Assembly: GCA_020852515.1 (NCBI GenBank)
Contig: JADZAS010000013.1
Span: forward strand, 496,001 to 560,000
Length of the DNA stretch: 64,000 nucleotides
Reading direction: 5' to 3'
Origin: Phycisphaerales bacterium
GTDB lineage: Bacteria > Planctomycetota > Phycisphaerae > Phycisphaerales > UBA5793
A model generated the notes under the pieces. The model was given only the letters and a program-made list of their open reading frames with translations. It was not told the DNA's origin and searched no databases. How positions within the stretch are numbered: the stretch's first letter is position 1; each line of letters starts with the position of its first letter. The translations under genes and the position numbers were made by a program. Below, piece by piece: positions 13,480 to 30,088 of this stretch.

Positions 13480-14430
13480 ATGATCGAGATTGATCATCTC
13501 ACGAAGTGCTATGGCTCTTTTCGCGCGGTGGGCGACGTCACGCTGAGCATCCCCGACGGCCAGGTGCTCGGCCTGCTCGGCCCCAACGGCGCGGGAAAGA
13601 CCACCATGATCCGCGTCATGACCGGCTATCTCCCCCCCACCAGCGGCCGGGCTTCCGTCGAGGGATTCGACAGCGTGACGCAGTCGCACGAAGTGCGCCG
13701 CCGCCTGGGTTACCTGCCTGAGTCCAACCCGCTCTACGGCGAGATGCGCGTCGTCGAGTACCTCGATTTCCGCGGCCGCATCTTCGGCCTGGCGCGCGAG
13801 GCGCGGCGCAAGGCCGTCGATCGCGTTGTCGAGCGCTGCTGGCTCAAGGAGATGCGCCGGCGGCAGATCGGACGTCTGAGCAAGGGCTACCGCCAGCGCG
13901 TCGGCCTCGCCGCGGCCATGCTTCACCAGCCGCCCGTGCTCGTGCTCGACGAGCCGACGTCCGGCCTCGATCCGATCCAGATCCGCGAGACGCGGCATCT
14001 CATCCGCGAACTGGCCGGCGACCACACCATGGTTCTGTCGAGCCACATCCTTCCCGAAGTCGAAGTGACCTGCGATCGGATCGTCATCATCGCGCGCGGC
14101 GGCATCCGGGCCGACGGCACCGTCGATCAACTCAAGCACAAGGCGGGTGATTCGCAGCACTACGTCCTCGAAGTCAAGCCCGCCGCAGGCGCAAACGGCT
14201 CGATCCGCGAAGCCATCGGACGGATTTCCGGCGTGTCTCGCGTGGATGAGACGAACATCGACGGCTGGACGCGGTACGAGATTACCGGCGGCGCGAGTGC
14301 GGTGGACCTGCGCGAGCCGCTGGGCCGGCTCGTGGCCGAGTCGGCCCTGCCCTGCCGCGAACTGCATCGCGAGTCCGGCTCGCTTGAGCAGTTGTTCGTC
14401 CGGATCACTTCGGAGGTGGATGCATCATGA
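13480..14430 (+). CDS. ABC transporter ATP-binding protein, GldA-like
   Basis: A 316-residue ATPase with Walker A GPNGAGKTT (about 39-47), signature LSKGYRQRVGLAAAM, Walker B VLVLDEPTSGLDP and the H-loop SSHILPEV, followed by a C-terminal domain typical of exporters of the ABC-2 class. It forms a complex with the permease encoded next (ATGA overlap). The set ATPase, permease, large exported GldG-like protein and DUF4340 protein corresponds to the gld/'ABC_transp_aux' cluster common in Bacteroidota and Planctomycetota. The substrate is unknown. Start at ATG 13480. Confidence 0.93.
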   Translation: MIEIDHLTKCYGSFRAVGDVTLSIPDGQVLGLLGPNGAGKTTMIRVMTGYLPPTSGRASVEGFDSVTQSHEVRRRLGYLPESNPLYGEMRVVEYLDFRGRIFGLAREARRKAVDRVVERCWLKEMRRRQIGRLSKGYRQRVGLAAAMLHQPPVLVLDEPTSGLDPIQIRETRHLIRELAGDHTMVLSSHILPEVEVTCDRIVIIARGGIRADGTVDQLKHKAGDSQHYVLEVKPAAGANGSIREAIGRISGVSRVDETNIDGWTRYEITGGASAVDLREPLGRLVAESALPCRELHRESGSLEQLFVRITSEVDAS

Positions 14431-15146
14431 GCCAGATGGTGGCCATCGCCCGCCGCGAGTTTCTCTCCTTCTTCAGCACGTCGGTGGGGTATGTCGTCCT
14501 CGCGCTGTACCTGCTCGTGAGCGGCCTGATCTTCGCGCTCTCGGTGCTGCACACGGGCGTCGAAGCGTCGATGCGGCCGTTCTTTGATCTCTCGCTCTTC
14601 CTGCTGCTGTTCATCGCCCCGGCGATCTCCATGCGGCTGCTCAGCGAAGAGATGCGTCTGGGCACGATCGAGTCGCTCATGACCTGCCCCGTCAGCGATG
14701 CGCAGGTCGTGGTGGGCAAGTGGATCGGAGCCGTAGGCTTCTTTCTGGCGATGCTGGCGCCCACGCTGCTCTACCCGCTGGTGCTCGAGTGGTACTCGGC
14801 GCCGGACTACGGCTCGATCTTCGCCGGCTACTTTGGCCTCATCCTCATCGGCTGCCTCTATCTCGCGCTGGGCACGCTGGCGTCGTCGATCTGGCCCAGT
14901 CAGATTCTGGCGTACCTGGTCGCGGTGTTCTTCTGGCTGCTGGTCGTCGGGCTGACGAGCTGGCTGCCGCGCTTCATCGGCGAGCCTTGGTCGTCCATCC
15001 TGTACAAAATGAGCATCGACCTGCGCTACAGCAACGACTTCTCAAAGGGAGTGATCGACACCTCGACGATCGTCTATTTCGTTTCGGGCATGGTGATCTT
15101 CCTGGTGGCGGCGGTCAAAATCGTGGAGTCGCGACGATGGCGGTAA
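14427..15146 (+). CDS. ABC-2 type permease, GldF-like
   Basis: A 239-residue integral membrane protein with six predicted helices. It starts MSQMVAIARREFLSFFSTSV, the usual N-terminal 'ARREF...F.SP.GY' pattern of GldF-type permeases, and contains ISMRLLSEEMRLGTIESLMT, the conserved ABC-2 amphipathic region that contacts the ATPase. It overlaps the ATPase gene by 4 bases and the following gene by 10, indicating translational coupling. Role: membrane channel of the exporter. Confidence 0.92.
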   Translation: MSQMVAIARREFLSFFSTSVGYVVLALYLLVSGLIFALSVLHTGVEASMRPFFDLSLFLLLFIAPAISMRLLSEEMRLGTIESLMTCPVSDAQVVVGKWIGAVGFFLAMLAPTLLYPLVLEWYSAPDYGSIFAGYFGLILIGCLYLALGTLASSIWPSQILAYLVAVFFWLLVVGLTSWLPRFIGEPWSSILYKMSIDLRYSNDFSKGVIDTSTIVYFVSGMVIFLVAAVKIVESRRWR

Positions 15147-17320
15147 GCAAGAACAAATCTCAGCAGGCGCCGCAGCAGGAGACGGCTTCGAGCCGGCGCC
15201 TTAAGTATGGCCTGAGCGTCGGCGTGCTGCTCCTGTCGCTGCTCATCATCCTTGGCGTGGTCAACTGGCTCGCCTCAGACGCGGCCTATCGCATGGACCT
15301 CACCGAGCGCGGCCGCTACTCCATCAGCCAGCAGACGCGCAACCTGCTCAAGTCGCTCGATGAGCATGTCACCATCACCCTGCTGTTCGCCGAGAGCGAT
15401 CCGACGCTCAACACCGACGAGCAGCGGCTGGTTGCGTCGCAGCGGCGCGAGATCGAAGATGTGCTGCGCGAACTGCGCAACAAGAGCGACAAGATCGAAG
15501 TCGTGCGCATCGATCCCACCGACCATCGCACGATCACGCAATACGACGAACTCATCGCCCGGCTCAAGGAGATCTACGCCGAGGAATCCGCAGCGTACGA
15601 AGCGGCGGCAAGGGAAGGCCAGGCGGCGCTGGAGCAACTCGCCACGTTTGCCGCCCGGCAGGGCGAGGTGCTCATCGGCGCGATGGGTGAACTGCCCTCC
15701 GACCACGTCTCGCGCCGGGACTTCCAGACCATCACGCTCGTGCTCTCTTCCGTGATCCCGCGCGAGAGCCAGGCGGCGATCGAAGCGATCGACGAATCGC
15801 TCAAGGACTCGCCGATGACAGGCGCGCCGTTTCCCGATCTGGCAGGCGCGGTCTCGATCGTCCGGGCTGGCGCCGACCGGGCCGGCACGCTCAACCAGAT
15901 CGCCGATTTCTTCGAACAGTCGATCGACGCCGGCACGCTGCCCGAATCGCTTGCGGGCAAACTCCAGCCGAACATCCAGGCGTACCGCGACATGGCGTCG
16001 TCGCTGCTCGATGAGCAGGAAAGGGTCGACGATCTCAAGCCGCTCGAACTGAGCAAGATCAACTCGGCTTTGCGCTCGCGCAACTGCGTGCTGCTGACCA
16101 GCCCGACGCGCGCCACGGTGCTGTCCTACAGCCGGCTCTTCCCGCCTCCGGGCGCGCAGCAGGCGGCCGAGGAGGCCACGGCCGGCGTGCGGCGCTTCGC
16201 GGGCGAGACGGTGCTTGCTTCGGGCATTCGCCAACTCATGCTCACCGATCGGCCCAAGGTGATCTTCTGCCACTCCGAGCAGGCGCCGACGATTCTCTCC
16301 GGCCGGCCCGATCGCCTTGATCTCGCCTCGGTCGCCAGCCACTTGCGCGACTTGGGCTTTGACGTACAGGAGTGGAATGTGAACTCGGGCCCGCGCCCGA
16401 CGATCGAGCAGACGACTGGCCAGCCGGTGTGGGTCATCCTGCCGCCGGCGCCGACGGGCCAGCAGATGATGACCGGCGCTGAACTGGCCGATGCAGCCAA
16501 GCAACTCGTCGCCGAAGGCGCCAACGTGATGATGAACTTCTTTCCGGGCCTCGTGGCCGGTCTCGGGCAGCAGGACCCGTGGAACGGCGCGATCGAGCCG
16601 TTGGGCGTCACCGCCGACACCGGTCAGATCATCGTCGAGCAGATCCCCCTGCCAAATGGGCCGCCTCAGACGGACCCGACGCACGTCTTCGTCGACTTCC
16701 TCAGCGAGAATCCGATCGCCACGGCCGTGCGCGGTGAGCCGACCCAGTTGAGCCTTATGGTGCCGTTGCAGCTCGACTCCGACGATACCGCCGAAGACAA
16801 AGACCCGCCGGACGAGGATTCGCAGGGCGAATCGCCGCAGCAGCCGCCTGCGGATTCGAACGTCCACAAGACGCCTCTGCTGCAACTCAAGCCCAGCGAG
16901 CGCATCTGGGCGACAGACGTGATGAACCTGATGCAGGGTGGTCAGATCAATCCGCCCGCCGAGCGGCGCAAAGAGCCGTACACCGTGGCCGCCGCCGTAG
17001 AGCGGCGAGGTGACTTCGGCCTGCAGCGGGCGCTCATCATCGGCTCGGCCCAGTGGTGCTGGACGGCGCAGGTCGGGCAGTATGACCTTTCCATGGGTCT
17101 GCCGATGTACCCGGGCAACAGCGAGCTCTTCGCCTCCGGCGTGTGCTGGCTGGCCCATCTTGATGAACTCATCGCCCGCAGTCCGCGTGCCGAATCCGTC
17201 GCTCGCATCGAGAATCTCGGCTCCGGCGCGCAGATTTTCTGGCGCTGGGCATTGATCGGCGGCCTGCCGGTGTTGAGCCTTGTGGCGGGCATCTTCGTGG
17301 CCGTCAGCCGGCGAGGCTAG
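15137..17320 (+). CDS. GldG-like ABC transporter accessory protein
   Basis: The protein of 727 residues has a basic N-terminus, one membrane helix (about 21-42, YGLSVGVLLLSLLIILGVVN) and then DLTERGRYSISQQTRNLLKS, the family hallmark of the GldG/ABC_transp_aux proteins. It ends with a second helix (FWRWALIGGLPVLSLVAGIF) and a short RRG tail. The long region between lies in the periplasm. An acidic, Asp/Glu/Pro-rich stretch near residues 550-575 is a probable linker. It overlaps the permease gene by 10 bases. It probably couples the exporter to a periplasmic or envelope partner; this is by family analogy. Confidence 0.88.
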   Translation: MAVSKNKSQQAPQQETASSRRLKYGLSVGVLLLSLLIILGVVNWLASDAAYRMDLTERGRYSISQQTRNLLKSLDEHVTITLLFAESDPTLNTDEQRLVASQRREIEDVLRELRNKSDKIEVVRIDPTDHRTITQYDELIARLKEIYAEESAAYEAAAREGQAALEQLATFAARQGEVLIGAMGELPSDHVSRRDFQTITLVLSSVIPRESQAAIEAIDESLKDSPMTGAPFPDLAGAVSIVRAGADRAGTLNQIADFFEQSIDAGTLPESLAGKLQPNIQAYRDMASSLLDEQERVDDLKPLELSKINSALRSRNCVLLTSPTRATVLSYSRLFPPPGAQQAAEEATAGVRRFAGETVLASGIRQLMLTDRPKVIFCHSEQAPTILSGRPDRLDLASVASHLRDLGFDVQEWNVNSGPRPTIEQTTGQPVWVILPPAPTGQQMMTGAELADAAKQLVAEGANVMMNFFPGLVAGLGQQDPWNGAIEPLGVTADTGQIIVEQIPLPNGPPQTDPTHVFVDFLSENPIATAVRGEPTQLSLMVPLQLDSDDTAEDKDPPDEDSQGESPQQPPADSNVHKTPLLQLKPSERIWATDVMNLMQGGQINPPAERRKEPYTVAAAVERRGDFGLQRALIIGSAQWCWTAQVGQYDLSMGLPMYPGNSELFASGVCWLAHLDELIARSPRAESVARIENLGSGAQIFWRWALIGGLPVLSLVAGIFVAVSRRG

Positions 17321-17350
17321 GCCGACGGCGCTTCAACTGGAGATCGAGGC

Positions 17351-18790
17351 ATGAACATTCGTCTCACGCTCATCGTGCTCGTGCTCGCCGTCGTGGCCGG
17401 CGTCGTGGCGATTATCAAACTGCGCAATCCCGCCCCGCCATCCACGACTCAGCCCGCCGCGGGCACGCGCCTGCTCAGTCCCGATGAATTCAATCCTGAC
17501 GACGTGACGCGCATCAGCGTGGAGAAGGGTGATGAGCACTACACCTTCGAACGGGACGGCGAGCAGTGGTGGCAGACCGAGCCCGTGCGATTCGAGATGG
17601 TGACCTGGTCGATCCGCATGCTCGCCACGTCGGCTGCGGACCTCACCATCTCCGAGACCATTGCCGCGCGCGATCTCAAGGGAGACCTCACGGCTGAAAA
17701 ACTCGGCCTCGATCCGGCCATGGCAACCGTGACGCTTGACGCCGGCGACAAGCAGTTCAATCTCTACCTCGGTCGAATTGCCGCGGGCGGCAAGGCCTAC
17801 GCGCGGCTCGCGCCCGAAGGCGAGGTGAGCATCGTGGAAGACACGCTCCACCGCCGCGTGTTCGACTCCTCGCCGCGCGAATGGCGCGTCAAGAACCTCT
17901 TCCACGGCGTCGGTGCGGATGCATCGCGCATCACCATCGAGCAGAGCGAGTCCGGCAAGACCACCAGCCTCGTCAGGACCGCCGGCAAGTGGCGCCTCAC
18001 GCTGCCCATCGACACACCGGCCGACGAGACGGCGGTCTCGCGCCTCATCGGAACGCTCGGCTCGCTGCAGGTCGAGAGCTTCGTCGATGACAATCCCGCC
18101 GACCTTGCCGACTTCGGCCTCGACAACCCCTGGGCGACGATCACTGTTGAAACTGACAAGGTCGATTCCGACGGCAAGGTCACGACGAATCGCGAATCAG
18201 TGCTGCTGGGCAGCCCATTCGACCTGCAGGACGCCGCCCGCTACGCGAAGCTCGCCGACCAGCCGCCCGTCGTCAAGGTGCGCGCCAACGACATAAGGAC
18301 GCTCACGCCCGATCCGGCGTCGCTGGCTTCCCGTGCCGTGGTGACGCTGCCGCGCCAGGATGTTCGCGCCTTGGTCATCGATGGCCAGGAGGGCCGCTTC
18401 CGCCTGGAGCGTAATCTCGACGCATGGACGATCACGCACGATGACGGCTCGACAGCGCCGGCGCGCACCGAAGCCGTGATCAGCCTGCTTGATCAGTTGA
18501 CGCTGCCCTGCCAGGGTGTCGAGATCGCCGCCAGCGGCGCTGCGGTCGATGGCAGTTACCTCGGCAAGGTCGCGGTCGAAGGCTTCAGCAGCGGCACCGT
18601 CGCCGAGACGACGTGGTACCGGCGCCAGAAGGATGATGCGGCGCAGCTCGTCCTGGCCGACGGCTCGGGCGCGCTGCGCTGGCGATCAATGGTCAACGTC
18701 CCCGAACTCGTGGCCGAAACATTCGCAGCCGGCGCCGCCACCGGCGGCGGCGAAACCGGCGCCACCAACGAGCCCGAACCGATCAAGTGA
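17351..18790 (+). CDS. DUF4340 protein, membrane-anchored
   Basis: A 479-residue protein with an N-terminal membrane helix (LTLIVLVLAVVAGVVAII) and repeated DUF4340-type segments, for example RLLSPDEFNPDDVTRISVEK followed by FERDGEQWWQTEPV, then KLGLDPAMATVTLD, and later REWRVKNLF and FGLDNPWATITV. DUF4340 genes are nearly always next to GldG-like genes, as here (30 bases apart), so it is a probable periplasmic component of the same ABC system. The C-terminus is Gly/Thr/Glu-rich and disordered. Confidence 0.87.
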   Translation: MNIRLTLIVLVLAVVAGVVAIIKLRNPAPPSTTQPAAGTRLLSPDEFNPDDVTRISVEKGDEHYTFERDGEQWWQTEPVRFEMVTWSIRMLATSAADLTISETIAARDLKGDLTAEKLGLDPAMATVTLDAGDKQFNLYLGRIAAGGKAYARLAPEGEVSIVEDTLHRRVFDSSPREWRVKNLFHGVGADASRITIEQSESGKTTSLVRTAGKWRLTLPIDTPADETAVSRLIGTLGSLQVESFVDDNPADLADFGLDNPWATITVETDKVDSDGKVTTNRESVLLGSPFDLQDAARYAKLADQPPVVKVRANDIRTLTPDPASLASRAVVTLPRQDVRALVIDGQEGRFRLERNLDAWTITHDDGSTAPARTEAVISLLDQLTLPCQGVEIAASGAAVDGSYLGKVAVEGFSSGTVAETTWYRRQKDDAAQLVLADGSGALRWRSMVNVPELVAETFAAGAATGGGETGATNEPEPIK

Positions 18791-18803: not shown

Positions 18804-19739
18804 CTACGGCAGCGTCCACTGGCCGTCGCGGTAGACGGTGAGCGTCGTGTTGATCTCGTACCACCGGGGCAGCATGCTCAGGTCGAGCACCGGGCGGGCA
18901 CGGGCCTGATCGACGGCCATGCGCGCCGACCACGACGCCTGCTCACCGGATTGCAGGGCGACCTCAAAGAGCAGCATCGAATCGAGGTCAGAGGGCGCGA
19001 TGCGCTCGCCCGGCTCGCCGCCGCAGATGTTGCAGATGATGAACTGCTGTCCGCCGCACAGAGCGCACTGGCCCGGCGAAGCGCCGCCGTGGCACGAGGG
19101 GCACTTGATGATGCGCTCGTTGCGGCAGGTGGGACAGCGCGGGTAGTTGCGGCAGAAGGACATGATCTGGCCAATGGAGCCGAAACTCCGGCCGAACTCC
19201 TTGGCGAGCCGCTGCGTGGCGTCGTTGAGTTCGAGCGCGGCCAGCGCCTTCTGCCCGTCGCCCTGGCGATAGAAACCGAGCATCGAAGACAGCAGCGACG
19301 CGGCGCGGCGGAACTCGCTCTCCGCCTCTTTCAGGCCCAGCGCTTCAGGCGACTCGACTGTCTCCGAATCGGACAGCAGCGCCGCCAGCGAGCGCAGGTC
19401 CCGCTCCTCCATCGACCGGCCGCGGCGCTTCTCGATCTCGGCCATCGCGAGGCATGCGCTGCGGCCAAAGCGATCGCCGTCGAGCCGCGCCGCGAGCACG
19501 AACAGCCGCACCGCCAGGTCGAGTTGATTCTCGTCAATTGCCTCCTCGCCAAGCAGAAAGTACGCCTCAGGATCGGAAGGCGACAGCTGTTCGAGCCTGG
19601 CATCCATGCTCGGCGCGTCTTGGTTCGTCGGCGACGATTCCGCCGGCGCTGCCGCAGCCGGGGGCGACTCCTGGGCGAGAATCGGCCGGGGCGTCAGGAG
19701 CAGCAGACCGCAGAGCATCGTGATCAAAGCGCGTTGCAT
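18804..19739 (-). CDS. Exported protein with DnaJ-type four-CxxC zinc finger
   Basis: A 311-residue protein with signal peptide (ITMLCGLLLLTPRPILAQ), a helical TPR-like part (about 40-175) and, near residues 195-245, four CxxC pairs in close order: CPTC, CPSCHGG, CALCGG and CNICGG. This is the CxxCxGxG spacing of the DnaJ central zinc-binding domain. The C-terminus is a beta-rich segment ending VYRDGQWTLP. It is the last gene of the ExbB/ExbD/VWA operon and its ATG overlaps the previous stop (TGATG). It may bind zinc and unfolded segments in the periplasm (inference); no enzyme motif is seen. Confidence 0.78.
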   Translation of the reverse strand: MQRALITMLCGLLLLTPRPILAQESPPAAAAPAESSPTNQDAPSMDARLEQLSPSDPEAYFLLGEEAIDENQLDLAVRLFVLAARLDGDRFGRSACLAMAEIEKRRGRSMEERDLRSLAALLSDSETVESPEALGLKEAESEFRRAASLLSSMLGFYRQGDGQKALAALELNDATQRLAKEFGRSFGSIGQIMSFCRNYPRCPTCRNERIIKCPSCHGGASPGQCALCGGQQFIICNICGGEPGERIAPSDLDSMLLFEVALQSGEQASWSARMAVDQARARPVLDLSMLPRWYEINTTLTVYRDGQWTLP

Positions 19740-22570
19740 CAGAATCCACCTCCTCGCGCCGCCTGACCGAAGCGCACTTCCCACACCTTGGTCAGCGCCC
19801 GTTCGGCGATGAGCAGTTGCTCCATGGCGTTGCGGCTGGCGGCGAGTCGCTGCGTCGTCGATTCGAGCAGGGTGGAAAGCTCTTGCCGGGCGGCCGGCCG
19901 CTCCGAAGACGTGACGTAACACGCTGCTTCGAGCGTGGCCATCTGCCACGCGTGGAACCGGCCGATCGGGTCGTCGAGCACCGCGGCGCGGATCGCGGCG
20001 CGGTGCGTGATCTGGTGCAGCGTGGCCGGAAGCGGCGCGATGGGCTGCATCGGCCGGGCGACCTCGACCCACTGCTCGAAGCTCAACTTCGCCGCCTGCG
20101 CCGGATCGAGGCTCGATGGAGTGGTGCGCAGCAGACGATCGCCATACACCGCGGCCAGCAGGTCGGCCAGCGAGTCGATGACGGCGTTGGCATTCAGCGC
20201 GCCGCGCAGGTATGCCGCCCGTCGAAGCAGCGCCAACCGCGCCACGCGATACCACTGCTCGTCGCGCGGATCGGGGAGGTTCTCAGCGGTGATGCGCTCG
20301 ATCGCGGCCGAGAGCGCGCCGTCGGAGCGGTCGGGGATCATCTTGTCCGCCAGCGCGAGCAGGACGTTGGGCCCCGACGCGTAGGAGCCTGCGATGGTGT
20401 CCAAGGCCACCTCGCGCATCTCGCGCGGCTGGCCGTTGAGCGCGATGTCGGCGAGCACCGCCGCGTTGATCGGCCCCAGTTCGCCGGCGATGTCGCTGGG
20501 CAGGCGCTCGATGAGTTGCTTCATGCCTTCCCGATCATTGTCTTTGGCGGCGCGGAAGTACTGCACGGCCCACTCGCCGTCGCCGCCGATGGGCGCTTCG
20601 GCCCGGCCGGGATTGTTCGCCGTCGCCAGACGCGCATCAGCCAGGCGCGATTCGGCGCCGGCCAGCAGCAGCGCCGCATCTTCTGGCCGGCCCGCCCAGA
20701 CGAGCGCGGCGGCGCTGTTGTGAAAGGCCGTTTCGATTGTCTGCACGAGGATTTCGCCATGTGTGACGCGCACCGGCTCCACGAGCAGGCGATCGGCGCG
20801 CAGAATCCAGTCGTCGATCCCGGTGCGCGCCGGCGCGCCGCCAGCCGTCTGGCCCGCGGCGGTCCACGCTTCGGCCAGTCGCTGGCGCAGGTCCGCCCGC
20901 TGCTGGGCGCCCGCGTCGGTGGGCACGATGAACGAATCGTCGAGCCCCGGAATGGCGCCGGTCGAGACGATCCACGCTGAGACGACGGCGAGGTCGTCGG
21001 CCGAGACGCGCGGCTCATCCCACCATGCCAGCAGCGCGCTCCGCGCCGCCGCTGACGTGCTCCACCGCACCGCAGAAAAGAGCGCGGCGAGTACGCGGCC
21101 GGCGCTGTCCGAGGTGGCGACGTCGGGCCCTTCGATCAGCAGTTGCCGCGCCGACTCGAGCGCCAGGTCCTCGGCCTGATCTTTGTCGGAAACAGTCGTC
21201 ACGCACTGAAGCCAGGCGATCCAGCTTTCCACGGCGCCGGATTCGATCGTCACGGCGCCCACCAGCGGCATGATCATCTCGCGCAGCGCAAAGCGGGCCG
21301 CGGCGTCGAAGTCGCCCGAGCGCGGCGGAGCGCCGGTGGGCACGTGCCGGCGCCAGTGCTGCTCGACCACGCTCCGCACCGGCGCGGGCAGGTCTGGCTC
21401 GCGCATAAGCACCGCGAGCATGCCCACGGACCAGGCGCGGCCGGTCAGCCCGTCGGGCGCCATCCATCGCGTCTGCTCGGGGTCGAGAAGCGACACGAGC
21501 GAAGCCGCGCTTGGCTGGTCACGGCCGAGCCGATAGATGGCCGAGACGAGCACATCGCGCAGGCGTTCGCGGCCGGCGCTGTCGAACACCATCCACTGCT
21601 TGCGGCCCTGTGTTGCTGCAGATGCGAAGAGATTCAACGTGGCCTGGTCGAGGGTCGAAGCAGCGGCCGAATCGCGATCGAGCTGTTCGAGCACGCCGGC
21701 AAAGGTCTGCGACATGGGGCTCACCGGCAGGCTGATGGTCTCGTTCTCGATGGCCGGCAGCGTCGGGGCGGCCGGGCGCTTGATCGGCGCAGCGGGCGCG
21801 TTGAGCGCAGCCGTCACTGCCGGGTCGGGCTTGGGACGCATGACGTTGATCTGAAAAAACACCCACACGGCGAACGGAACGACGATCGCCGCACAGGCCA
21901 GAAAGGCCATCATTGCCACAAAGAGATTGCGCTTGGCCGCCTCGTGCGCATCGCGATAGGACAGAACGTCGGAGACGTTGAGCGCCGGCGCGGCGTCGAG
22001 TCCGCCGGCAAACGCGGCGGGCGGCGGGCCGACCAGCGGTGTGTCGCGCGGCGTGGCCAGCGTGACGGGCATGGTGAGGATGGCGTCGAGCAGCGCTTCG
22101 CCCGACACGCCGTGTTGGGCGCCGGCGGCGATGATGCGGTGCCGCGCCTTGCCGTTCCACCCTCCGGCCGACACCCACGCGGCCAGCAGATCGCGCAGGA
22201 ACGCGGGCGGGTAGTTCGGCGCGCCTGAGCCGGTGCGGGCCGAGCCGTTCGAAGCCGCGCGAGAAGCGGGCGCTACCGGCGCGGCCGACGCCGCCACACT
22301 CAGTCGCGCCTTGTGGTAGTCTGCGATGAGCGCCCGGCGAGCCTCGGCGTTAAGCAGCAGCGAGGCCGCGGCGCGGATCTCGCGGCGCAGCGCGTCGGCC
22401 GCCGCATCGTCCGAGCCCGCGCGGACGTTGATGCGAGCCAGCAGCGAATCGACCGCCGTCTGCACATGATGCGGCTCGCATCGATCGGGAGTCAGCCCGA
22501 GCAGTGCGAACGGGCCGATGCGGCCCGAGGTGGTGCCGAGAATCTCAAGCCGAAGCGCTTCGGGGGTCAT
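19739..22570 (-). CDS. Large membrane protein with J-domain-like N-terminus
   Basis: A 943-residue protein. Residues about 17-90 (IGPFALLGLTPDRCEPHHVQ onwards) have the helical pattern of a J domain, with FALLGL at the start and a helix ending ALIADYHKARL, but no HPD tripeptide, so it should not activate DnaK. One membrane helix follows around residue 222-242 (VAMMAFLACAAIVVPFAVWV). The remaining 700 residues are alpha-helical repeats without a named family, presumably periplasmic. Start ATG 22570 overlaps the previous stop (ATGA). The next gene encodes the DnaJ-type zinc finger, so the operon seems to carry split DnaJ-like parts. Confidence 0.75.
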   Translation of the reverse strand: MTPEALRLEILGTTSGRIGPFALLGLTPDRCEPHHVQTAVDSLLARINVRAGSDDAAADALRREIRAAASLLLNAEARRALIADYHKARLSVAASAAPVAPASRAASNGSARTGSGAPNYPPAFLRDLLAAWVSAGGWNGKARHRIIAAGAQHGVSGEALLDAILTMPVTLATPRDTPLVGPPPAAFAGGLDAAPALNVSDVLSYRDAHEAAKRNLFVAMMAFLACAAIVVPFAVWVFFQINVMRPKPDPAVTAALNAPAAPIKRPAAPTLPAIENETISLPVSPMSQTFAGVLEQLDRDSAAASTLDQATLNLFASAATQGRKQWMVFDSAGRERLRDVLVSAIYRLGRDQPSAASLVSLLDPEQTRWMAPDGLTGRAWSVGMLAVLMREPDLPAPVRSVVEQHWRRHVPTGAPPRSGDFDAAARFALREMIMPLVGAVTIESGAVESWIAWLQCVTTVSDKDQAEDLALESARQLLIEGPDVATSDSAGRVLAALFSAVRWSTSAAARSALLAWWDEPRVSADDLAVVSAWIVSTGAIPGLDDSFIVPTDAGAQQRADLRQRLAEAWTAAGQTAGGAPARTGIDDWILRADRLLVEPVRVTHGEILVQTIETAFHNSAAALVWAGRPEDAALLLAGAESRLADARLATANNPGRAEAPIGGDGEWAVQYFRAAKDNDREGMKQLIERLPSDIAGELGPINAAVLADIALNGQPREMREVALDTIAGSYASGPNVLLALADKMIPDRSDGALSAAIERITAENLPDPRDEQWYRVARLALLRRAAYLRGALNANAVIDSLADLLAAVYGDRLLRTTPSSLDPAQAAKLSFEQWVEVARPMQPIAPLPATLHQITHRAAIRAAVLDDPIGRFHAWQMATLEAACYVTSSERPAARQELSTLLESTTQRLAASRNAMEQLLIAERALTKVWEVRFGQAARGGGF

Positions 22571-25230
22571 TGATCGCCCCCCTGCCGCTTCATCTGCTCG
22601 TGCAACTCGCGGATCTTCGCGCCCCACGGCTCCGGGCCATAATCCGGATGCAGCAGGATGTGCTGGCTCATGACCTCGCGGGCCCGCGCGGGTTCGCTGC
22701 CATGGAGCAGGCGCATGAAGTGATAGCGCGCTTCGTACCACTCCGGCGCGGATTCAGGGGACCCGGTCATGGCCGTGCGCCAGTGCTGCAGCGCTTCGTC
22801 GGCGCGGCCGCGGCTCTCCGCAATGATCGCGGCGCCGCGCAGCACGCGAAAGTGACGCGGCTGAGCTTCGAGCAAGCTGGCGAACCAGGATTCGGCGAGT
22901 GGACGCAGTTCGGCGTCGGCGCCTTGGGTCATGGTGTCCAGGGTCAGCGCCGCGTCGGCGACGTTGAGCATGATCGCCGCTGACGCCGGTTCGGCAGCCG
23001 AAGGCGGATCGCCCGCCGACCGCAGCGCCCGCCGACCGTGCAGCACGACGCGGCGAAGCGTCTCCTCAAGGCGCGCGTCCTGTTTGAACGTCTGCCAGTC
23101 CTGCACCGCGTAGGTGTAAAGCGCCCGGCTGGCGGACTGGGCGAAGGCACTGTCTGGGTCGGACTTCCATAACTCTTCGCACCACCTGGCCGCTTCCTCG
23201 AAGCCGCCCGAGAGGATCTGCGCCTGGAATCGGCGGTAGTCGAGTTCGCCGGCAACCGCGGAGAGGTCGATGAGCCCCGCCGCACGGGCCGTTTCGAGGC
23301 GATCGAGAATCTGTCTCGCCTCGCTCACGCGCGCCACGCCGCGCGTGAGCAGCACGTCAAGCACGCGCCGGGCCCGCGTGAGATACTGCTCGCGGGCGGC
23401 GGCGTCGGCGCTGCCGATGAACGCGCGGCGTTCGTCGGCCTCAAGCAGCGGCATGGCCACCTCGAGATACTGCTGCGCCGCCTGGATCCGCCGGTCCGCC
23501 GGCGCGTCGCGAAACAGTAGAAAGAGCATGCGTTCGGCCTCGGCCCGTGCGGCGCCGTAGGCATCGCTGCTGGGTGGAATCGCCAGCAACTCCTCAACCG
23601 CCTGCGGAGACGGGGTCGCGTCCGCCGTGGCCTGGCGAAAACGCACGCGGCCGGCGCGGCTGCTGGACGGGAATCGCTTCACAAACTCCTGCAGGGCCCG
23701 GTCGAGGTCGGCGGCCCACTTTGGATCACTCTCATTGGCGGAGGCCAGGCGTTCGCGGCAGACGATGCTCATCCACATGGCGGACTCGGCTTCGTCGCCG
23801 GTGAGTTCACGCGACGTGTCTTCAAAGAGGCTCGCGGCTGGCGCAAGACGTCCCTGGAAGTACTGTGACCAGGCGACGAGCAGGCGCGCGTGCCGTGCTG
23901 CATCGGGCCACTGCCGCGCATCGCGCCGGTCGGCCGTCGTGGTCAGCAACCGTTCAGCCGCGGCGTAAAGCGCGATCATGTTCGGATCGGTGGCCGGCTC
24001 GTCGCCATGATGAGCCTCGCGCGCCGCTTCGTAGGCCTTTATCGCGGGCACGTAGGCGAGGATGAAACTGTCGCCGCCGAGCGAATCGAGTCGAAAGACA
24101 TCGGCAATCTCGATGACCTGGTGCAGTTCGCCCATCTGCGCCAGCATATTGACGGCCTCCTCGCCCAGCCGGCGCGACTGCGCATCGCCGGTGGATTGCG
24201 ATTGCTCAAGCGCGAGCACGGCAAAGAGGCGCACGAGCGTGGTCGTCAGGCGGCCTTCCGAGCGCCACTTGGCGATGGAGAGTTCGATCTCATCCCATTG
24301 ACCCGCGGCGAAGAGCACCACGAGGCGATAGCCGGGCAGAATCGCCTGCACGCGCGGCGACTGCGGATTGGCCGCCTGCACGTTGTCGAGCCACGCAAGG
24401 CCGGTCTGCGCGCGTCCGGCCTGGGCGTGACACAGCGCGATGCCGATGGCGGCGCGGGCGGCGTGCTCGGGGCTGAGCATCGACTCGGGCACATCTTCAG
24501 GCTCGGGCGGCGCGCCGTCAAACTGCAGAATGTCGCCAAAGAGTTGGATCGCCTGGTCAAGGCCCGACGTGCCGCCGCCGAGCCACGCCTGGTAGTACCG
24601 CGCCCATCCGCCGTAGTAGGCCGCCTGCATGGCAAACGTGTCCAGTTCGGCCAGTTGGGCCTCGATCGTCTCTGAATCGACGTTTGACGTGCCGAAGTCG
24701 GTGCTCTCCAGGCGGCGGATGCGTTCGCGGAAACTGGCGTGGCTGTCTCCCATCGCGGCCGCCACTTCGCCCATCAGGCGCGCCGCGGTCTGCCGCTCTT
24801 CATCCGTCGCGCGGCGCAGCCGGTGGAGTTCGGCCAGGCGCTCGGCGCGGAGATAACTCGCCTTGTGGATCGTCAGGCGGAGCGTTTCCGTATTGGCCTT
24901 GGGCACGCGCTCGAGCATGTCGCGGCTCTTGCGCTCCCAGTGGGCCCGCTCGCGATCGTCGCCGGTCTCATCCAGCATGCGGCCGTAAAGCACCGCGAGA
25001 CGCTCGGCCAGCGGAATGCGCTCCTCGCCCAAGGCCTCGCCGAAGCGGCTCTCGAGGCGCGCAATGACCAGATCCGTCAGCCCGTGCCGTTCGAGATACT
25101 CCACCACCGGGTCGTCATCGCGCGTCGGCGAAGCCTGCGCGCGAGCCAGAGAGGCGCCGGCGGCGATCACCACAGCGCTCATCAGCAGGCCGATCAGGCG
25201 TCGCAACGGACTATTTCGATTCGGGGACAT
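22567..25230 (-). CDS. Exported TPR-like helical repeat protein, 887 residues
   Basis: It begins with a signal peptide (about 1-32, LIGLLMSAVVIAAGASLARA) and continues as nearly pure alpha-helix with Ala/Arg/Leu/Glu repeats typical of TPR or Sel1-like solenoids, for example AIGIALCHAQAGRAQTGLAW and ARLLVAWSQYFQGRLAPAAS. No catalytic motif. It starts 20 bases inside the 3' end of the ExbD gene. Its overall plan (length, short N-terminal EYLERHGLTDLV block after the signal, solenoid, C-terminal ARYHFMRLLHG block) resembles the protein at 53787-56408, which suggests paralogy. It is likely a periplasmic scaffold of the ExbB/ExbD complex (inference). Confidence 0.8.
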   Translation of the reverse strand: MSPNRNSPLRRLIGLLMSAVVIAAGASLARAQASPTRDDDPVVEYLERHGLTDLVIARLESRFGEALGEERIPLAERLAVLYGRMLDETGDDRERAHWERKSRDMLERVPKANTETLRLTIHKASYLRAERLAELHRLRRATDEERQTAARLMGEVAAAMGDSHASFRERIRRLESTDFGTSNVDSETIEAQLAELDTFAMQAAYYGGWARYYQAWLGGGTSGLDQAIQLFGDILQFDGAPPEPEDVPESMLSPEHAARAAIGIALCHAQAGRAQTGLAWLDNVQAANPQSPRVQAILPGYRLVVLFAAGQWDEIELSIAKWRSEGRLTTTLVRLFAVLALEQSQSTGDAQSRRLGEEAVNMLAQMGELHQVIEIADVFRLDSLGGDSFILAYVPAIKAYEAAREAHHGDEPATDPNMIALYAAAERLLTTTADRRDARQWPDAARHARLLVAWSQYFQGRLAPAASLFEDTSRELTGDEAESAMWMSIVCRERLASANESDPKWAADLDRALQEFVKRFPSSSRAGRVRFRQATADATPSPQAVEELLAIPPSSDAYGAARAEAERMLFLLFRDAPADRRIQAAQQYLEVAMPLLEADERRAFIGSADAAAREQYLTRARRVLDVLLTRGVARVSEARQILDRLETARAAGLIDLSAVAGELDYRRFQAQILSGGFEEAARWCEELWKSDPDSAFAQSASRALYTYAVQDWQTFKQDARLEETLRRVVLHGRRALRSAGDPPSAAEPASAAIMLNVADAALTLDTMTQGADAELRPLAESWFASLLEAQPRHFRVLRGAAIIAESRGRADEALQHWRTAMTGSPESAPEWYEARYHFMRLLHGSEPARAREVMSQHILLHPDYGPEPWGAKIRELHEQMKRQGGDQ

Positions 25231-25633
25231 ACGTCACCTTCTCAAACCCGGCGTCGCGGCAGCACTGGATCGCGCCGACGGCAAAGCCCACCGGCACCGA
25301 ATCTGATACGCGCACAAACACCCCGAGTTCGTGCGGCAGTTCGCGCAGCAGTTCGAGCAGTTCGCTGCGCGTCGCGATGACGCGCGAGCCGACGCGGTAA
25401 CCCGGCTTGCCGTCAATCACCTCCACGGAGAGCACCTGCGGGCTGAAGTCGGTGCTGCGGCTGGCGCTGCTGACCTGCTGCGTCTGTATGTTGGGCGTCA
25501 GTTGCGACTCGGACGGCGTAATGATCGATGAAAACAGAAAGAAAATGAGCAGCAGAAAGACCACGTCGATCATGCTCGCGAGGTTGAGCGGCACGCGGCT
25601 GCGGTTGTCGGGCTTTTTGGACTTGAAGTTCAT
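25211..25633 (-). CDS. ExbD/TolR-family protein (second copy)
   Basis: A 140-residue protein with the ExbD layout: short cytoplasmic segment, then PLNLASMIDVVFLLLIFFLF, the single helix with the proton-relay aspartate (MIDVVF), then a periplasmic domain ending FEKVTYVPESK. ExbD/TolR dimers sit in the ExbB channel and turn proton flow into motion of a periplasmic domain. ATG 25633 overlaps the stop of the first ExbD gene (TGATG). Having two non-identical ExbD genes after one ExbB is typical of planctomycete clusters. Confidence 0.93.
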   Translation of the reverse strand: MNFKSKKPDNRSRVPLNLASMIDVVFLLLIFFLFSSIITPSESQLTPNIQTQQVSSASRSTDFSPQVLSVEVIDGKPGYRVGSRVIATRSELLELLRELPHELGVFVRVSDSVPVGFAVGAIQCCRDAGFEKVTYVPESK

Positions 25634-26070
25634 CAGCGGGCCGGCTCCGTCGCCAGTCGCCAGCGCCACACGCCGCGCTCGCGGAGGTAGGCGCCCAGGT
25701 CGTTGATCCACTTGCTTGCGCCGCGCTGGTCGGCGCGAATCACCACTTCGAATTCGCCCATCGTGCGGCCATCCTCGCGCAATCGCATGATTTCGCGATC
25801 GATGAGTTCCTTCACGGCGGCCTGTCCCATCTGGCGCTCGCCGACAATATACCGGTCCGGCCCTTCCACGAGGACGTTGACCACCAGCGGGGGCAGCGCC
25901 GCCCGCGCTTCGGCCTCGCCCTTCTCCTCAGGCAACTCGAGTTCGGCCCGGGCCCGCTCGACAAACTGCGCCGTGGTCATGAAGAAGATGATGAGGAGAA
26001 AAATGACGTCGATCATCGCGGTGAGATCGAGTTCAGGCAGGTGAACGCGCTGTTGGGCGGTGAACCTCAC
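25633..26070 (-). CDS. ExbD/TolR-family protein (first copy)
   Basis: A 145-residue protein with helix LDLTAMIDVIFLLIIFFMTT, in which the conserved aspartate of the proton path is present, and a periplasmic domain with NVLVEGPDRYIVGERQM and a helical end. It starts at GTG 26070, overlapping the ExbB stop by 4 bases (GTGA), which fits translational coupling. With the second ExbD it probably forms a heterodimer in the ExbB pentamer. Confidence 0.93.
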   Translation of the reverse strand: MRFTAQQRVHLPELDLTAMIDVIFLLIIFFMTTAQFVERARAELELPEEKGEAEARAALPPLVVNVLVEGPDRYIVGERQMGQAAVKELIDREIMRLREDGRTMGEFEVVIRADQRGASKWINDLGAYLRERGVWRWRLATEPAR

Positions 26071-26888
26071 GTACCCACCCTCGCAGACGCAGCCGGGGGG
26101 GCGGCAGGCCGCGTCGGGCCGCTCGGAGCGGGCGCGGACATCGGGCGCGCCGGCGCCGCGGCCGCCGCACGGGCGGCGCCGGCCGGCGGAGCGCCGGTGG
26201 GCTCAAGCCCGACGGTGATTTCTTCGATGGTCTGAGCCGCCAGTGCGGCATAATGGTCGATGCGGTTGCGCAGATATGAGAACACCGCCATCGTCGGAAT
26301 CGCCACGCACAGACCCATGAGCGTCGTAATCAGGGCTTTAGAGATGTCCGCGGCGAGCAGTTCGGGGCGCGCGCCGCTGCTTGAGATCGTGCTGAACGCG
26401 CCGACCATGCCGATGACGGTTCCGAGCAGGCCGAGCATCGGCGCGATCGAGCCGATCAGGCCCAGCGCATCGGTCTTGCGGTAGAGGCGGGCCACTTCTT
26501 CGGCGCCCGCTTCTTCGATGGCGTCCTTGAACTCGAACGGGCCGAACGCGCTGCGCTGGTAGCGGTTGAGCCCCTGCGCCAGGACGCGCGTGAGGAACGA
26601 ATCGTTCTCCACGCGCTTGCAGACTTCGAGTGCGCCGACGACGTCGCGGTTGATGAGCAGGCCCTGCAGAGCTGCGACGAGGTGCGGCGGCACGAGGCGC
26701 TTCGGCTGAATCGCGATGATGTTCATCACCGCCAGCGTGGCCGCCACGAGACTCAGGAGGATGATGATGTATCCCGTCAGACCGCCATTGTTGATCTGCT
26801 CGAGCAGCGTCATGCCGCGGGGCTCCTCATCCTGCGCGAGCAGAAGCAGCGGCTGGAGCATCGTGGTAGCGAGAACGCCCATGGTCAT
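26067..26888 (-). CDS. MotA/TolQ/ExbB proton channel protein
   Basis: A 273-residue membrane protein with three helices: near residues 38-60 (GYIIILLSLVAATLAVMNII), and the two core helices around IGSIAPMLGLLGTVIGMVGA and ISKALITTLMGLCVAIPTMA, which carry the conserved TolQ/ExbB Thr and Pro positions. An N-terminal hydrophobic segment may be a signal. The C-terminal 50 residues are Ala/Pro-rich and disordered, longer than in E. coli ExbB. It overlaps both neighbours by 4 bases. It forms the proton-driven stator for the two ExbD proteins. Confidence 0.94.
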   Translation of the reverse strand: MTMGVLATTMLQPLLLLAQDEEPRGMTLLEQINNGGLTGYIIILLSLVAATLAVMNIIAIQPKRLVPPHLVAALQGLLINRDVVGALEVCKRVENDSFLTRVLAQGLNRYQRSAFGPFEFKDAIEEAGAEEVARLYRKTDALGLIGSIAPMLGLLGTVIGMVGAFSTISSSGARPELLAADISKALITTLMGLCVAIPTMAVFSYLRNRIDHYAALAAQTIEEITVGLEPTGAPPAGAARAAAAAPARPMSAPAPSGPTRPAAPPAASARVGT

Positions 26889-28048
26889 TGCTTTTTCTCC
26901 GTGGCGGCGATGCGTGGCGCTGCTGCCGCGTCGTTGAGGGGGTGCGTCGGATAGTCGAGCTTGAGTTCAGCGCGGAGCGAGGCGGCGTCCTCCGAACGGC
27001 CGAGATCTTCGAGCGCATCGGCCGCGGCATCGAGGGCGAAGCCGGCGAGATAGGGCTGCGGGCCGCCGAACAGTGCAGGCACAGTCAACAGATCCACCAG
27101 CCCGCCGCGCTGCGTATCCACATCGCTCACCACCACGCGCGCCAGGCCGCGCGCGAAATACGCCCAGGGAGTCAGCGGGCCGGTTTCGCGATACAGCCGC
27201 GCGAACGTGCGGTCAACTTCGACGGGAAAGGGTTTGACTTTTTCCACGGCGGCGAGCACTGCGGTGACCATCAGCGCCGCGGGATCGCGCCGCCACTCTT
27301 CATCGAGGTGATAAAACAGCGCCGCATCCTGCACTCGAGCACCCAGCGCCAGTCGGGCGCCGCGGGCATACAACGCGGCGAGGCGCTCCGTCGCCGGCGC
27401 ATCCACGACGTAATGGTCCAGATCCGAGAGCAGCTGCTCAACGCCCACGGTGCGCGTCCACAGCGGCGGCAGTTGCGGGCACACGCCGCTCGATGGATCG
27501 ACAATCGGCGCCATGTCGAGGTACGCCGCCGGCTTGATGCCGCTGTTGAGCAGCCGGTGCATCTCAAGCCAGGGGATCACGGCAGCCGCGCGGGCGCTCC
27601 GCGCCAGGCGGCAGCGCAGCAGGCCCTCGGCGACGACCAGAGCCGTTGCGTCGGTCCGCCCCATCATCTCACTGAAAAGCGGATCGAGAATCGGCTCGGC
27701 TGCGGCGTAATCCTGCCGCTCCACGCGACTGCGGGCCCGCCAGAGTTTCTCGCTCAGATCGCGGAACTCGGCGAAGCGCTCCGCAAAACCTTCGCGATCG
27801 GTTTCGAGCAGTCGCACGCGGTCCCACGTGTAGAGCGTATCGATGCTGTCGCTGGCCCGCGCGACGCGAAAGAGCACGCCGGCGTCATCGACCTGCACGG
27901 CGCGACCTTCGACCGGATTCTGTGATCCGCGCGCAAAGAGGCGGTCGGCGCGGCACACCGGCGCGGCGAAAGCCAGAACGACCAGCCCGAACCAGGCAGA
28001 GCAAAGCCGCAGGCCGTCGCGATGGGAGTGCAGCCGCATCAGCCTCAC
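26885..28048 (-). CDS. Exported protein of unknown function, 387 residues
   Basis: It starts at GTG 28048 (overlapping the VWA stop as GTGA) or ATG 28039. A signal peptide follows (core WFGLVVLAFAAPVCRA). The mature protein starts DRLFARGSQNPVEGRAVQVD, a beta-rich segment, and then becomes helical with TPR-like pairs (AEPILDPLFSEM, RCRLARSARAAAVIPWLEMH). It always seems to be needed between the VWA and ExbB genes here, with no gap on either side. I recognise no family with confidence. Confidence 0.75.
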   Translation of the reverse strand: MRLMRLHSHRDGLRLCSAWFGLVVLAFAAPVCRADRLFARGSQNPVEGRAVQVDDAGVLFRVARASDSIDTLYTWDRVRLLETDREGFAERFAEFRDLSEKLWRARSRVERQDYAAAEPILDPLFSEMMGRTDATALVVAEGLLRCRLARSARAAAVIPWLEMHRLLNSGIKPAAYLDMAPIVDPSSGVCPQLPPLWTRTVGVEQLLSDLDHYVVDAPATERLAALYARGARLALGARVQDAALFYHLDEEWRRDPAALMVTAVLAAVEKVKPFPVEVDRTFARLYRETGPLTPWAYFARGLARVVVSDVDTQRGGLVDLLTVPALFGGPQPYLAGFALDAAADALEDLGRSEDAASLRAELKLDYPTHPLNDAAAAPRIAATEKKQ

Positions 28049-29043
28049 GGTGGCCCTCCGCCGCCGCCCGGGTTGGGCACGCCGAAGTCGGGCACGTAGC
28101 GATACTCGCCGCCTGATTCCTTGGCGATCTGCCGCATGATCTCTTCGCCGCCGCGGGAGCCGAAGATAATGGTGTTGATCTTGGTCCGCCGGCCTCGCGT
28201 GTTGAGGGCCCGGACGAAGCCTGGCAGCACTTCGGTCTGCTGGCCGTCGGTCATGAAGTAGATGATGTCGGGTCGCGGTTTGAGTTTGAACGCTTCCTCA
28301 AACGCCGGGGCCGGCTCGGTGCCTCCCGCCGACACGAGGCGGCTGATCCACGCGCGTACCTTGAACTTGGTCTGCTCATCCGCCTTGTACCAGCGGTACT
28401 GATCGTTCATCGCAAAAGCATTGTCGCTGTAGGCAATGATCAGAAACGAAGCGTGCTCGGGAAGCGCGTTGATCGACTCGACAAGATTGCGCTGCAGCGT
28501 GCCGATGCGGTCAGCTTCGGACATCGAGCCGGAGACATCCACGATGTAGACGAAGCGGTTGCCGCGCGCTTCGATGCCGAAGAAGCTCGTTCCCGCGCCG
28601 CCGCCGCCGAGCATCTGCCCGGGGCTGAAGTCCTCCCCGGCGCCGCCCAGCGTGTCCACCGCTCCCGGGTCGGCCAGATCGACCGAGACGCTGGCTGGAT
28701 CGGCTTCAAACAGTTCGGCCGGCGACTCGGCCGAGACGGTGAGACTCGGGTCCATCGGCGTGGGGATCGCATCGGAAGGGTCGTCGAGTTTGGTCAGTTC
28801 CTCCTCGGCGAGCGTGGCGAACTCGATCTGCACCTCGCCATCGCCTCGAATCGGCGGGTTGATCACCAGGATCGCGGCGATGAGCAGAAACAGCGCGTGG
28901 AGGAAGATCGACACCGCCGGAGCGATCACCTTCTCAGGCTTGCGGTACTGCGACGTGTGCCGCGACTCCTCCGCAAGCACTTCGTAGACATCGGGCTTGG
29001 GCGCCGCGGTCTCGTTGAGATTGCTCGTCGGCTCGTGGTTCAT
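28045..29043 (-). CDS. Membrane-anchored VWA protein, TonB/BatA-like layout
   Basis: The protein of 332 residues has a cytoplasmic N-terminus, one membrane helix at about 40-62 (PAVSIFLHALFLLIAAILVI), a Pro/Glu/Asp-rich periplasmic stretch, then a VWA domain with an intact metal site: DVSGSMS (D169, S171, S173), a threonine in SAGGTEPAP and TDGQQTE. It ends in a Gly/Pro tail. A single N-terminal anchor followed by an extended linker resembles TonB-type partners of ExbB/ExbD, with VWA in place of the TonB C-terminal domain. It is the first gene of the operon; CAGGAGCAGGC precedes ATG 29043. Confidence 0.88.
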   Translation of the reverse strand: MNHEPTSNLNETAAPKPDVYEVLAEESRHTSQYRKPEKVIAPAVSIFLHALFLLIAAILVINPPIRGDGEVQIEFATLAEEELTKLDDPSDAIPTPMDPSLTVSAESPAELFEADPASVSVDLADPGAVDTLGGAGEDFSPGQMLGGGGAGTSFFGIEARGNRFVYIVDVSGSMSEADRIGTLQRNLVESINALPEHASFLIIAYSDNAFAMNDQYRWYKADEQTKFKVRAWISRLVSAGGTEPAPAFEEAFKLKPRPDIIYFMTDGQQTEVLPGFVRALNTRGRRTKINTIIFGSRGGEEIMRQIAKESGGEYRYVPDFGVPNPGGGGGPP

Positions 29044-29356
29044 GCCTGCTCCTGCCCCTGCAGCGGCAGCTCTCCTGCGTCCGTTGCCTCGCCTCGACCC
29101 GGCTCGCGTGGCTGGCTGCCGGCCCGTGCGGTTCCGGCAGCGACTGGGCCGCATTGGTCTGTTCGGCTGCACCCCCGAAGCGGTTGCGGCCGAGAAAAAC
29201 ACTCGTGCGATTCCATCCTATCGGATGCGCGGCAATGCCCCGGCAATCACGAAACAATTATAGGACAACCATATCTTCCCATTCGGGCGTCGCTCGCGCT
29301 TGACCCTCACCGCCCCGCCGACTCCAATGCTCGAACCCGCTCACCCAGGAATCCTC
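29044..29356. other. Divergent control region between the VWA operon and pyrH
   Basis: The 313-base gap separates two divergent operons. It has an AT-richer stretch around 29190-29280 (GAAACAATTATAGGACAACC), the most likely promoter area. The open frame through 29202 on the minus strand gives only Arg/Ala-rich sequence and is not counted as coding. Alternative upstream pyrH starts (TTG 29300, ATG 29327) fall here. Confidence 0.5.
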
Positions 29357-30088
29357 ATGCCCGAGTCGTCCCGCTATCGGAAAGTCCTGCTGAAAGTCTC
29401 CGGTGAGAGCCTGGCTCAGACCGGCGCCCTGGGCATCGATCCGGAGGCCCTCAACCTGCTGGCCCGCGAGATCATCGCCGCCATCGAGACTGGGACCTCC
29501 GTTGCCGTGGTCGTCGGCGGGGGCAACATCGTCCGCGGCGCTGCCTTGGCCAAGGCCGGGCTCATCCCGCAGGCCAGCGCCGACTACATGGGCATGCTCG
29601 GCACGATTATTAACGGCATCGCCCTCAAAGAGACGCTTGACCAACTCGGCCAGCCGGCGCGACTGCTCTCGGCCCTCAACATCACCTCCGTCGCAGAGCC
29701 GTTCATCCGCGGACGGGCCCTGCGGCACATGGAAAAGGGCAGGGTCATTATCCTCGGCGGCGGCACGGGCAACCCCTTCTGCACCACCGACACCGCCGCC
29801 GCCCTGCGCGCCACCGAACTCGAATGCGACATCATCCTCAAGGCCACCAAGGTGGATGGCGTCTACTCCTCCGACCCCAAGACCGATCCCAAGGCGAAGC
29901 GCTACGAGCGCCTGACGTTCGATGAAGCCATCGCCGCGCACCTCAAGATCATGGACCTCACAGCATTTTCCATGTGCATGGAGCAGAATCTGCCGATCGT
30001 GGTCTTTGACTTCAAAGTGCGCGGCAACATCAAGGCCGTCGTCGAGGGCCGGCCGATCGGGACGATGATTACGTCCAGAGGCGGGTGA
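29357..30088 (+). CDS. pyrH: UMP kinase
   Basis: PyrH phosphorylates UMP to UDP with ATP in pyrimidine nucleotide synthesis and acts as a cytoplasmic hexamer. The 243-residue product is of normal length and shows RKVLLKVSGESLAQTGALGI, VVVGGGNIVRGA, DYMGMLGTIINGIAL, GRVIILGGGTGNPFCTTDT and LKATKVDGVYSSDPKTDP, all family blocks. I use ATG 29357 because CCCAGGA precedes it and the next residues (PESSRYRK) lead straight into the first strand. In many bacteria pyrH lies with tsf and frr; here it stands alone before uppP. Confidence 0.96.
   Translation: MPESSRYRKVLLKVSGESLAQTGALGIDPEALNLLAREIIAAIETGTSVAVVVGGGNIVRGAALAKAGLIPQASADYMGMLGTIINGIALKETLDQLGQPARLLSALNITSVAEPFIRGRALRHMEKGRVIILGGGTGNPFCTTDTAAALRATELECDIILKATKVDGVYSSDPKTDPKAKRYERLTFDEAIAAHLKIMDLTAFSMCMEQNLPIVVFDFKVRGNIKAVVEGRPIGTMITSRGG

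Follow-up and report, generated by a model that had tools for sequence, protein, structure and literature searches.

What does a bacterium do with an ExbB/ExbD-type motor that is encoded beside a VWA-domain protein and several large helical proteins, and what would such a machine act upon? The question is raised by an operon of eight minus-strand open reading frames (ORFs) at 18804–29043 of a 64,000-nucleotide stretch of contig JADZAS010000013.1 from a Phycisphaerales bacterium, hereafter called the window. An ORF check of the window found an overlap at every junction, and all of the ORFs and overlaps given in an earlier note, which was made from the DNA letters alone, proved correct (Table 1). 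The overlaps are GTGA (28045–28048), ATGA (26885–26888), and GTGA (26067–26070) at junctions 1/2, 2/3, and 3/4, TGATG at 25633 at junction 4/5, 20 bases (25211–25230) at junction 5/6, ATGA (22567–22570) at junction 6/7, and TGATG at 19739, where the ATG of gene 8 starts, at junction 7/8. In orthologous loci, the median spacings from junction 1/2 to junction 7/8 are -4, -4, -4, -1, -17, -4, and -4, with starts chosen by script and a few large negative values that are start errors; the gene 5/6 junction overlaps in 23 of 25 loci. Because the overlaps are kept across orthologous loci, they are more than chance, and they point to one co-expressed unit, as the earlier note had supposed. A scan of 18804–29043 gave neither a sigma-70-type promoter-like site nor an excess of sites resembling terminators.

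Table 1. Genes of the operon and the flanking pyrH gene in the window, with the basis of each assignment.
Feature	Position	Strand	Basis
Gene 1, VWA transducer, 332 aa	28045..29043	-	Pfam, motifs, hydropathy
Gene 2, exported protein, 387 aa	26885..28048	-	Signal-like N-terminus, profile comparison
Gene 3, ExbB/TolQ-type motor subunit, 273 aa	26067..26888	-	Pfam, residue conservation
Gene 4, ExbD/TolR-type subunit 1, 145 aa	25633..26070	-	Pfam, invariant Asp21
Gene 5, ExbD/TolR-type subunit 2, 140 aa	25211..25633	-	Pfam, invariant Asp23
Gene 6, exported alpha-solenoid (TPR-like) scaffold, 887 aa	22567..25230	-	AlphaFold2, Foldseek
Gene 7, J-like/membrane/solenoid protein, 943 aa	19739..22570	-	Predicted model, hydropathy
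Gene 8, exported helical protein with zinc-ribbon insert, 311 aa	18804..19739	-	CxxC motifs, gene 7 fusions
pyrH (UMP kinase), outside the machine, flanks the VWA end	29318..30088 (start codon approximate)	+	Locus comparison

Pfam matches above the cut-off are to VWA (gene 1), MotA/ExbB (gene 3), and ExbD (genes 4 and 5); genes 2, 6, 7, and 8 matched no Pfam family above the cut-off, and NCBIfam gave the operon proteins only sub-threshold matches. By hydropathy, the gene 1 protein has one helix in its N-terminal region (residues 43–61), gene 3 has three helices, genes 4 and 5 have one each, gene 7 has one internal helix (217–235), and genes 2, 6, and 8 have signal-like N-termini. In the putative motor, T157 and T189 of the ExbB protein are invariant in all 44 rows of the alignment and T188 in 43 of them, and the membrane aspartates of ExbD1 (D21) and ExbD2 (D23) are likewise invariant in 44 of 44 rows. 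What characterizes an ExbB/ExbD proton motor, family matches together with a membrane Thr in ExbB and a membrane Asp in ExbD, is thus all present, and these invariant residues, being those that conduct protons in motors of this type, suggest that the complex is driven by protons.

The gene 1 protein is ordered as a cytosolic tail, the membrane helix, a D-box-like segment, a linker, and a C-terminal VWA domain (Pfam VWA_3, E 6e-8). Its membrane helix carries SIFLH, that is, the SxxxH motor-docking signature of TonB and TolA, and the S and the H are each found in 41 of 42 VWA homologues, with A or N in the remaining rows. In TonB and TolA, docking is by the Ser and His of the SHLS motif (PMC12204202); the L and the second S of that motif are off the TonB positions in the window protein. 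Just outside the membrane, VQIEFAT fits the hydrophobic/hydrophilic pattern of the TonB D-box, the segment to which the ExbD dimer binds (PMC10907165). The VWA proteins of the four families of the order that we number f1 to f4 share a related string, EFAxL...EL, and those of families f5 and f6 have a different one. The helix and the D-box-like segment together place the VWA protein where TonB or TolA would sit, the position that the earlier note had assigned to it next to an ExbB/ExbD stator. The MIDAS site is intact (DVSGS, T242, D266), its D169, S171, S173, and D266 are invariant among the VWA homologues, and gene 1 has no match to TonB_C. Judged from its sequence, the protein shows the traits of a transducer coupled to a motor, with a metal-dependent binding domain serving as the hand. 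The corresponding VWA transducer of a genome from another class (G176, L127:9247-10287) has a zinc ribbon (CFYC...CPHC) in its cytosolic tail. VWA homologues without adjacent motor genes occur in other planctomycetes (L129–L133, L139, and L140, mostly family f32), and an SxxxH helix was seen in L129.

The earlier note took a complex of this kind to be undescribed, which does not hold. In Williams-Jones et al. 2025 (PMC12204202), vWA force transducers of unknown function are predicted beside tolQ, two different tolR genes, and a TPR gene in the PVC group, and are reported in Planctomycetes and Verrucomicrobia with a single SHLS-like helix, a disordered linker with a motor box, and a C-terminal VWA domain. 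The window shares with that account the single helix with its docking His, the D-box linker, the C-terminal VWA domain, and the adjoining tolQ-like, two different tolR-like, and TPR genes; by these described features, the locus belongs to the vWA force transducer kind. Compared with the same account, the VWA gene is the first gene in the window and lies downstream in the published version, the window has two exported helical/TPR-like proteins flanking the motor genes, and genes 7 and 8 seem to be additional to the published description.

The exported proteins of genes 2 and 6 were compared by profile and by predicted structure. Gene 2 has an N-terminal strand-rich stretch followed by putative helical/TPR-like repeats, and its WRAR...R.D motif is invariant; it matches the TPR-containing proteins at the gene 2 position of f5 and f6 with a profile score of 91.8 percent (E 7e-7). 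Gene 6 is homologous end to end with the long secreted proteins of f5 and f6 (98.2 percent, E 4e-14, 788 columns), a match obtained with an alignment without verrucomicrobial rows, the mixed alignment of f5, f6, and Verrucomicrobia having failed. AlphaFold2 predicts gene 6 as an all-helical solenoid (pLDDT 88.4), for which Foldseek returned TPR proteins with low TM-scores. Among these are 9hmf_K, the periplasmic scaffold of the Campylobacter flagellar motor, at rank 28, and LbcA, the TPR adaptor of a periplasmic protease. Because the TM-scores are low, 9hmf_K is no proof, but it offers a helpful parallel for a scaffold that surrounds a stator.

The gene 7 model (pLDDT 78.2) comprises a J-like domain (1–93), a second small helical domain (122–172), the membrane helix, and a long alpha-solenoid (288–936); we infer an orientation with the J-like domain in the cytosol and the solenoid in the periplasm. 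Foldseek found nothing below 0.001 for gene 7 and only alpha-solenoids of the HEAT/ARM kind. Residues 20–93 are modeled as a short helix followed by three helices, and the first 80 residues, when compared with PDB sequences, matched only two DnaJ 2 chains weakly (E 0.3–0.6). In gene 7 proteins, HP is common, the D is kept in few, and HPD is lost in most. The label J-like given in the earlier note is therefore fair, on the weak DnaJ matches and the helix pattern, despite the loss of HPD. Its reading of gene 8 as a DnaJ-type zinc-finger protein stands for the window protein, which has four CxxC motifs, and fails for the family, as other lineages have two and 6 of 19 orthologues have none; the DnaJ cysteine-rich zinc domain with its four conserved CxxC is not a conserved feature of gene 8. 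Genes 7 and 8 form one ORF in two loci (L056 and L057), and a gene 8-like tail is present in L069. This fusion favours a physical association of the two proteins and puts gene 8 on whichever side of the membrane holds the C-terminus of gene 7. The further claim that the large helical proteins of the operon are periplasmic is also supported.

The gene order was followed in other genomes, as the earlier note had proposed, and it is kept well beyond this one, so that the first of the refuting findings named in the note is not obtained. A search with the VWA protein matched 59 of 61 relatives, the weaker matches including other VWA proteins, and iterated profiles were run over 40 of the matched loci. 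The complete set of eight genes, with order and strand unchanged, is found in 18 other genomes of families f1–f4 (L028, L029, L049–L055, L058–L060, L063–L068), and a core of five to seven genes reaches far beyond, into f5 and f6, another order, and other classes. The f5/f6 core has one or two VWA genes, in most cases a homologue of gene 2, the ExbB-ExbD-ExbD trio, and a gene for a secreted protein of about 800–1100 residues; the J-like and zinc parts (genes 7 and 8) are missing there and the rest is retained. In G176, genes 1–7 follow one another as in the window (E 5e-100 for gene 6 and 4e-13 for gene 7); G136, likewise outside the order, combines motor, VWA, and gene 6 with an exported protein where gene 2 would stand. 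In G115, of the same class and another order, VWA, the motor, and gene 6 are followed by a J-like membrane protein of 1044 residues, the first 150 of which match gene 7 (E 1.5e-4); full-length gene 7 matches are otherwise limited to the order. In the window, as in each of the 27 f1–f4 loci examined, pyrH adjoins the VWA side of the operon, divergently except in L066 and L067, the f1–f4 ExbB proteins form one clade with G176 as sister, and the machine is present even in genomes of about 2.4 Mb (L069, L071). From the pyrH position, the ExbB clade, and the conserved order, the operon is seen to be vertically inherited at a fixed place.

One genome departs from this arrangement and counts against the proposed reading of the operon as a motor-coupled machine. 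In G023 (L062, about 12472–17398), genes 1, 2, 6, 7, and 8 are kept and ExbB-ExbD-ExbD is missing; genes 2 and 6 meet in a GTGA overlap (CCGTGAAC), the VWA helix retains SVLVH (SxxxH), and elsewhere in that genome only ExbB paralogues of 29–32 percent identity were found. If there is no assembly error, this transducer must use another motor. Separate sets also occur. The window's own genome carries a second VWA gene with a gene 2 homologue and no motor (G000:C30, L122:8579-10698), and an ExbB-ExbD-ExbD set without VWA (G000:C2, L125:9325-11404), the ExbB of which groups with family f5 (support 86/62). Behind gene 7 of G176 (L127:19209-19501) there is another gene 2-like start (LRGDADPVAGYVESRSGGV), truncated where the retrieved sequence ends. 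In six f5 loci (L073, L074, L075, L078, L079, L081), VWA is immediately preceded on its own strand by genes for an ABC ATPase, a permease, and a large membrane protein of ~700–800 aa. In the window, DUF7088 (GldG-type, 14720–17320, plus strand) and DUF4340 (17351–18790, plus strand) belong to an ABC transporter set convergent with the operon; a functional link to these ABC/GldG-type/DUF4340 genes (13402–18790, plus strand) was considered and rejected, the arrangement being kept in near relatives only.

As the best explanation of what is directly seen, namely the gene order, overlaps, domains, motif conservation, predicted folds, and gene 7–8 fusion, we consider it probable that the operon encodes a PMF-driven trans-envelope force-transducing complex, as the earlier note had suggested for planctomycetes; the assembly, stoichiometry, proton drive, and ligand belong to the inferred part of this proposal. 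An ExbB-type pentamer and an ExbD1/ExbD2 pair would form the inner-membrane motor, on which the VWA protein would dock in the manner of TonB or TolA, with its SxxxH helix on ExbB and its D-box-like strand on the ExbDs. The periplasmic VWA domain, with its complete metal site, may then grip and pull a putative ligand on the outer membrane or cell wall. The exported proteins of genes 2 and 6 would serve as periplasmic scaffolds, gene 7, with its one-helix anchor, would join the cytosolic J-like domain to a second periplasmic solenoid, and gene 8 would be the periplasmic partner of gene 7.

The task of such a complex has to be judged against the known systems of the same envelope. With Tol-Pal, the operon has in common a TolQ/TolR-type motor, the transducer helix motif, and a periplasmic TPR partner (compare CpoB); it differs in having neither a TolA C-terminal domain nor a Pal or TolB-like partner among its genes. 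TolB_N was found in 0 of 21 relatives, with control genomes positive, so that the machine occurs where the canonical Tol system does not; TonB_C is present in only 11 of 21 relatives, and 15 of 15 genomes lack FtsZ. OmpA-domain proteins occur in every one of the 15 genomes examined, and none is linked to the VWA locus. The main texts of the Planctopirus and Verrucomicrobium essential-gene papers do not mention the operon genes. A housekeeping envelope role would fit the near-universal occurrence in the order, which extends to small genomes, and a Tol-like role is our best guess, weakly supported as it is: we tentatively suggest that the machine links outer membrane and wall while the cell grows and constricts, in bacteria without TolB or FtsZ. 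More doubtful is the fuller proposal that the VWA-motor complex replaces Tol-Pal in the outer membrane–wall coupling of these planctomycetes and that gene 7 relays a signal from its cytosolic J-like domain to the periplasmic scaffold.

The machine might instead serve uptake, its VWA transducer opening an outer-membrane channel for large nutrients such as polysaccharide, in a Ton-like manner without TonB-dependent receptors. The ExbBD proteins, SxxxH, and D-box are closest to Ton, with which the operon has in common the motor subunits, the SxxxH helix, and the D-box-like strand, and transport machines include periplasmic TPR scaffolds. It departs from Ton in that a VWA domain replaces the TonB C-terminal domain and the two ExbDs differ. 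Against an uptake role, the operon encodes neither an outer-membrane barrel nor a glycan enzyme, C14 of the window's genome carries a separate TonB/ExbBD set close to a gene with a plug domain, and the VWA system is near-universal in the order. The TonB-receptor plug domain is absent in four genomes of the order (G006, G010, G015, G023), all of which keep the VWA system, so the machine is independent of TonB receptors; energizing such receptors is therefore rejected as its task, and uptake in the wider sense is unlikely. Distinctly unlikely is a gliding or surface-adhesion machine, an idea put forward by Williams-Jones et al. 2025 (PMC12204202). The combination of a single TolQ and two different TolR proteins with TPR proteins, a zinc ribbon, and a VWA domain does recall the Agl-Glt (AglRQS-Glt) machinery of Myxococcus. 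CglB, however, is a secreted VWA adhesin without a membrane-helix tether and not a motor-docked transducer, a MotA/MotB pair of the window's genome lies among ORFs that read as flagellar genes, and conservation across the order and in small genomes fits housekeeping better.

If the motor powered a chaperone-like or quality-control complex acting on proteins of the outer membrane or surface, the J-like domain, the gene 8 zinc ribbon, and the TPR solenoids would be its chaperone parts, a reading that has an echo in the LbcA result. Yet the loss of HPD and the variable zinc cysteines make Hsp70-type action unlikely, so that an Hsp70 co-chaperone reading of genes 7 and 8 is rejected, and f5 and f6 lack the J-like and zinc parts and keep the rest; we regard this reading as very unlikely. 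VWA and MotA/ExbB-type genes are also found in BatA-type complexes and in phage defence (Zorya-like), either of which might by chance adjoin an ExbBD set. The locus has no MoxR, DUF58, or nuclease/helicase genes, PADLOC gave no match at all, the VWA topology (one N-terminal helix, not C-terminal) and SxxxH differ, and the locus is fixed and vertically inherited beside pyrH. Both are practically ruled out by the missing neighbours and the PADLOC result, and the possibility raised in the earlier note, that the VWA protein is of the BatA type, falls with them. The Tol-like envelope role remains our preferred reading.

The idea of a motor with a VWA partner was thus published in 2025; as far as we found, the larger and very stable version with big scaffolds and a J-domain-like membrane protein is not described, and a literature search that covered few subscription journals returned no paper describing genes 7 and 8. 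New here are the conserved layout, the two secreted helical/TPR-like proteins, and the J-like/membrane/solenoid protein with its zinc-ribbon partner, fused in two lineages, together with residue statistics over 42–44 sequences, the fixed place, the homology of genes 2 and 6 across families, and the absence pattern of TolB, FtsZ, and the plug domain. The residue conservation is independent support for the 2025 vWA-transducer prediction, and any model of the complex must include the two exported scaffolds, the J-like anchored solenoid, and the zinc-ribbon partner. Planctomycetes divide without FtsZ, and the members examined lack TolB; for the holding and constriction of their outer membrane, an operon that stays next to pyrH in four families and whose core reaches other classes offers a concrete, deletable candidate.
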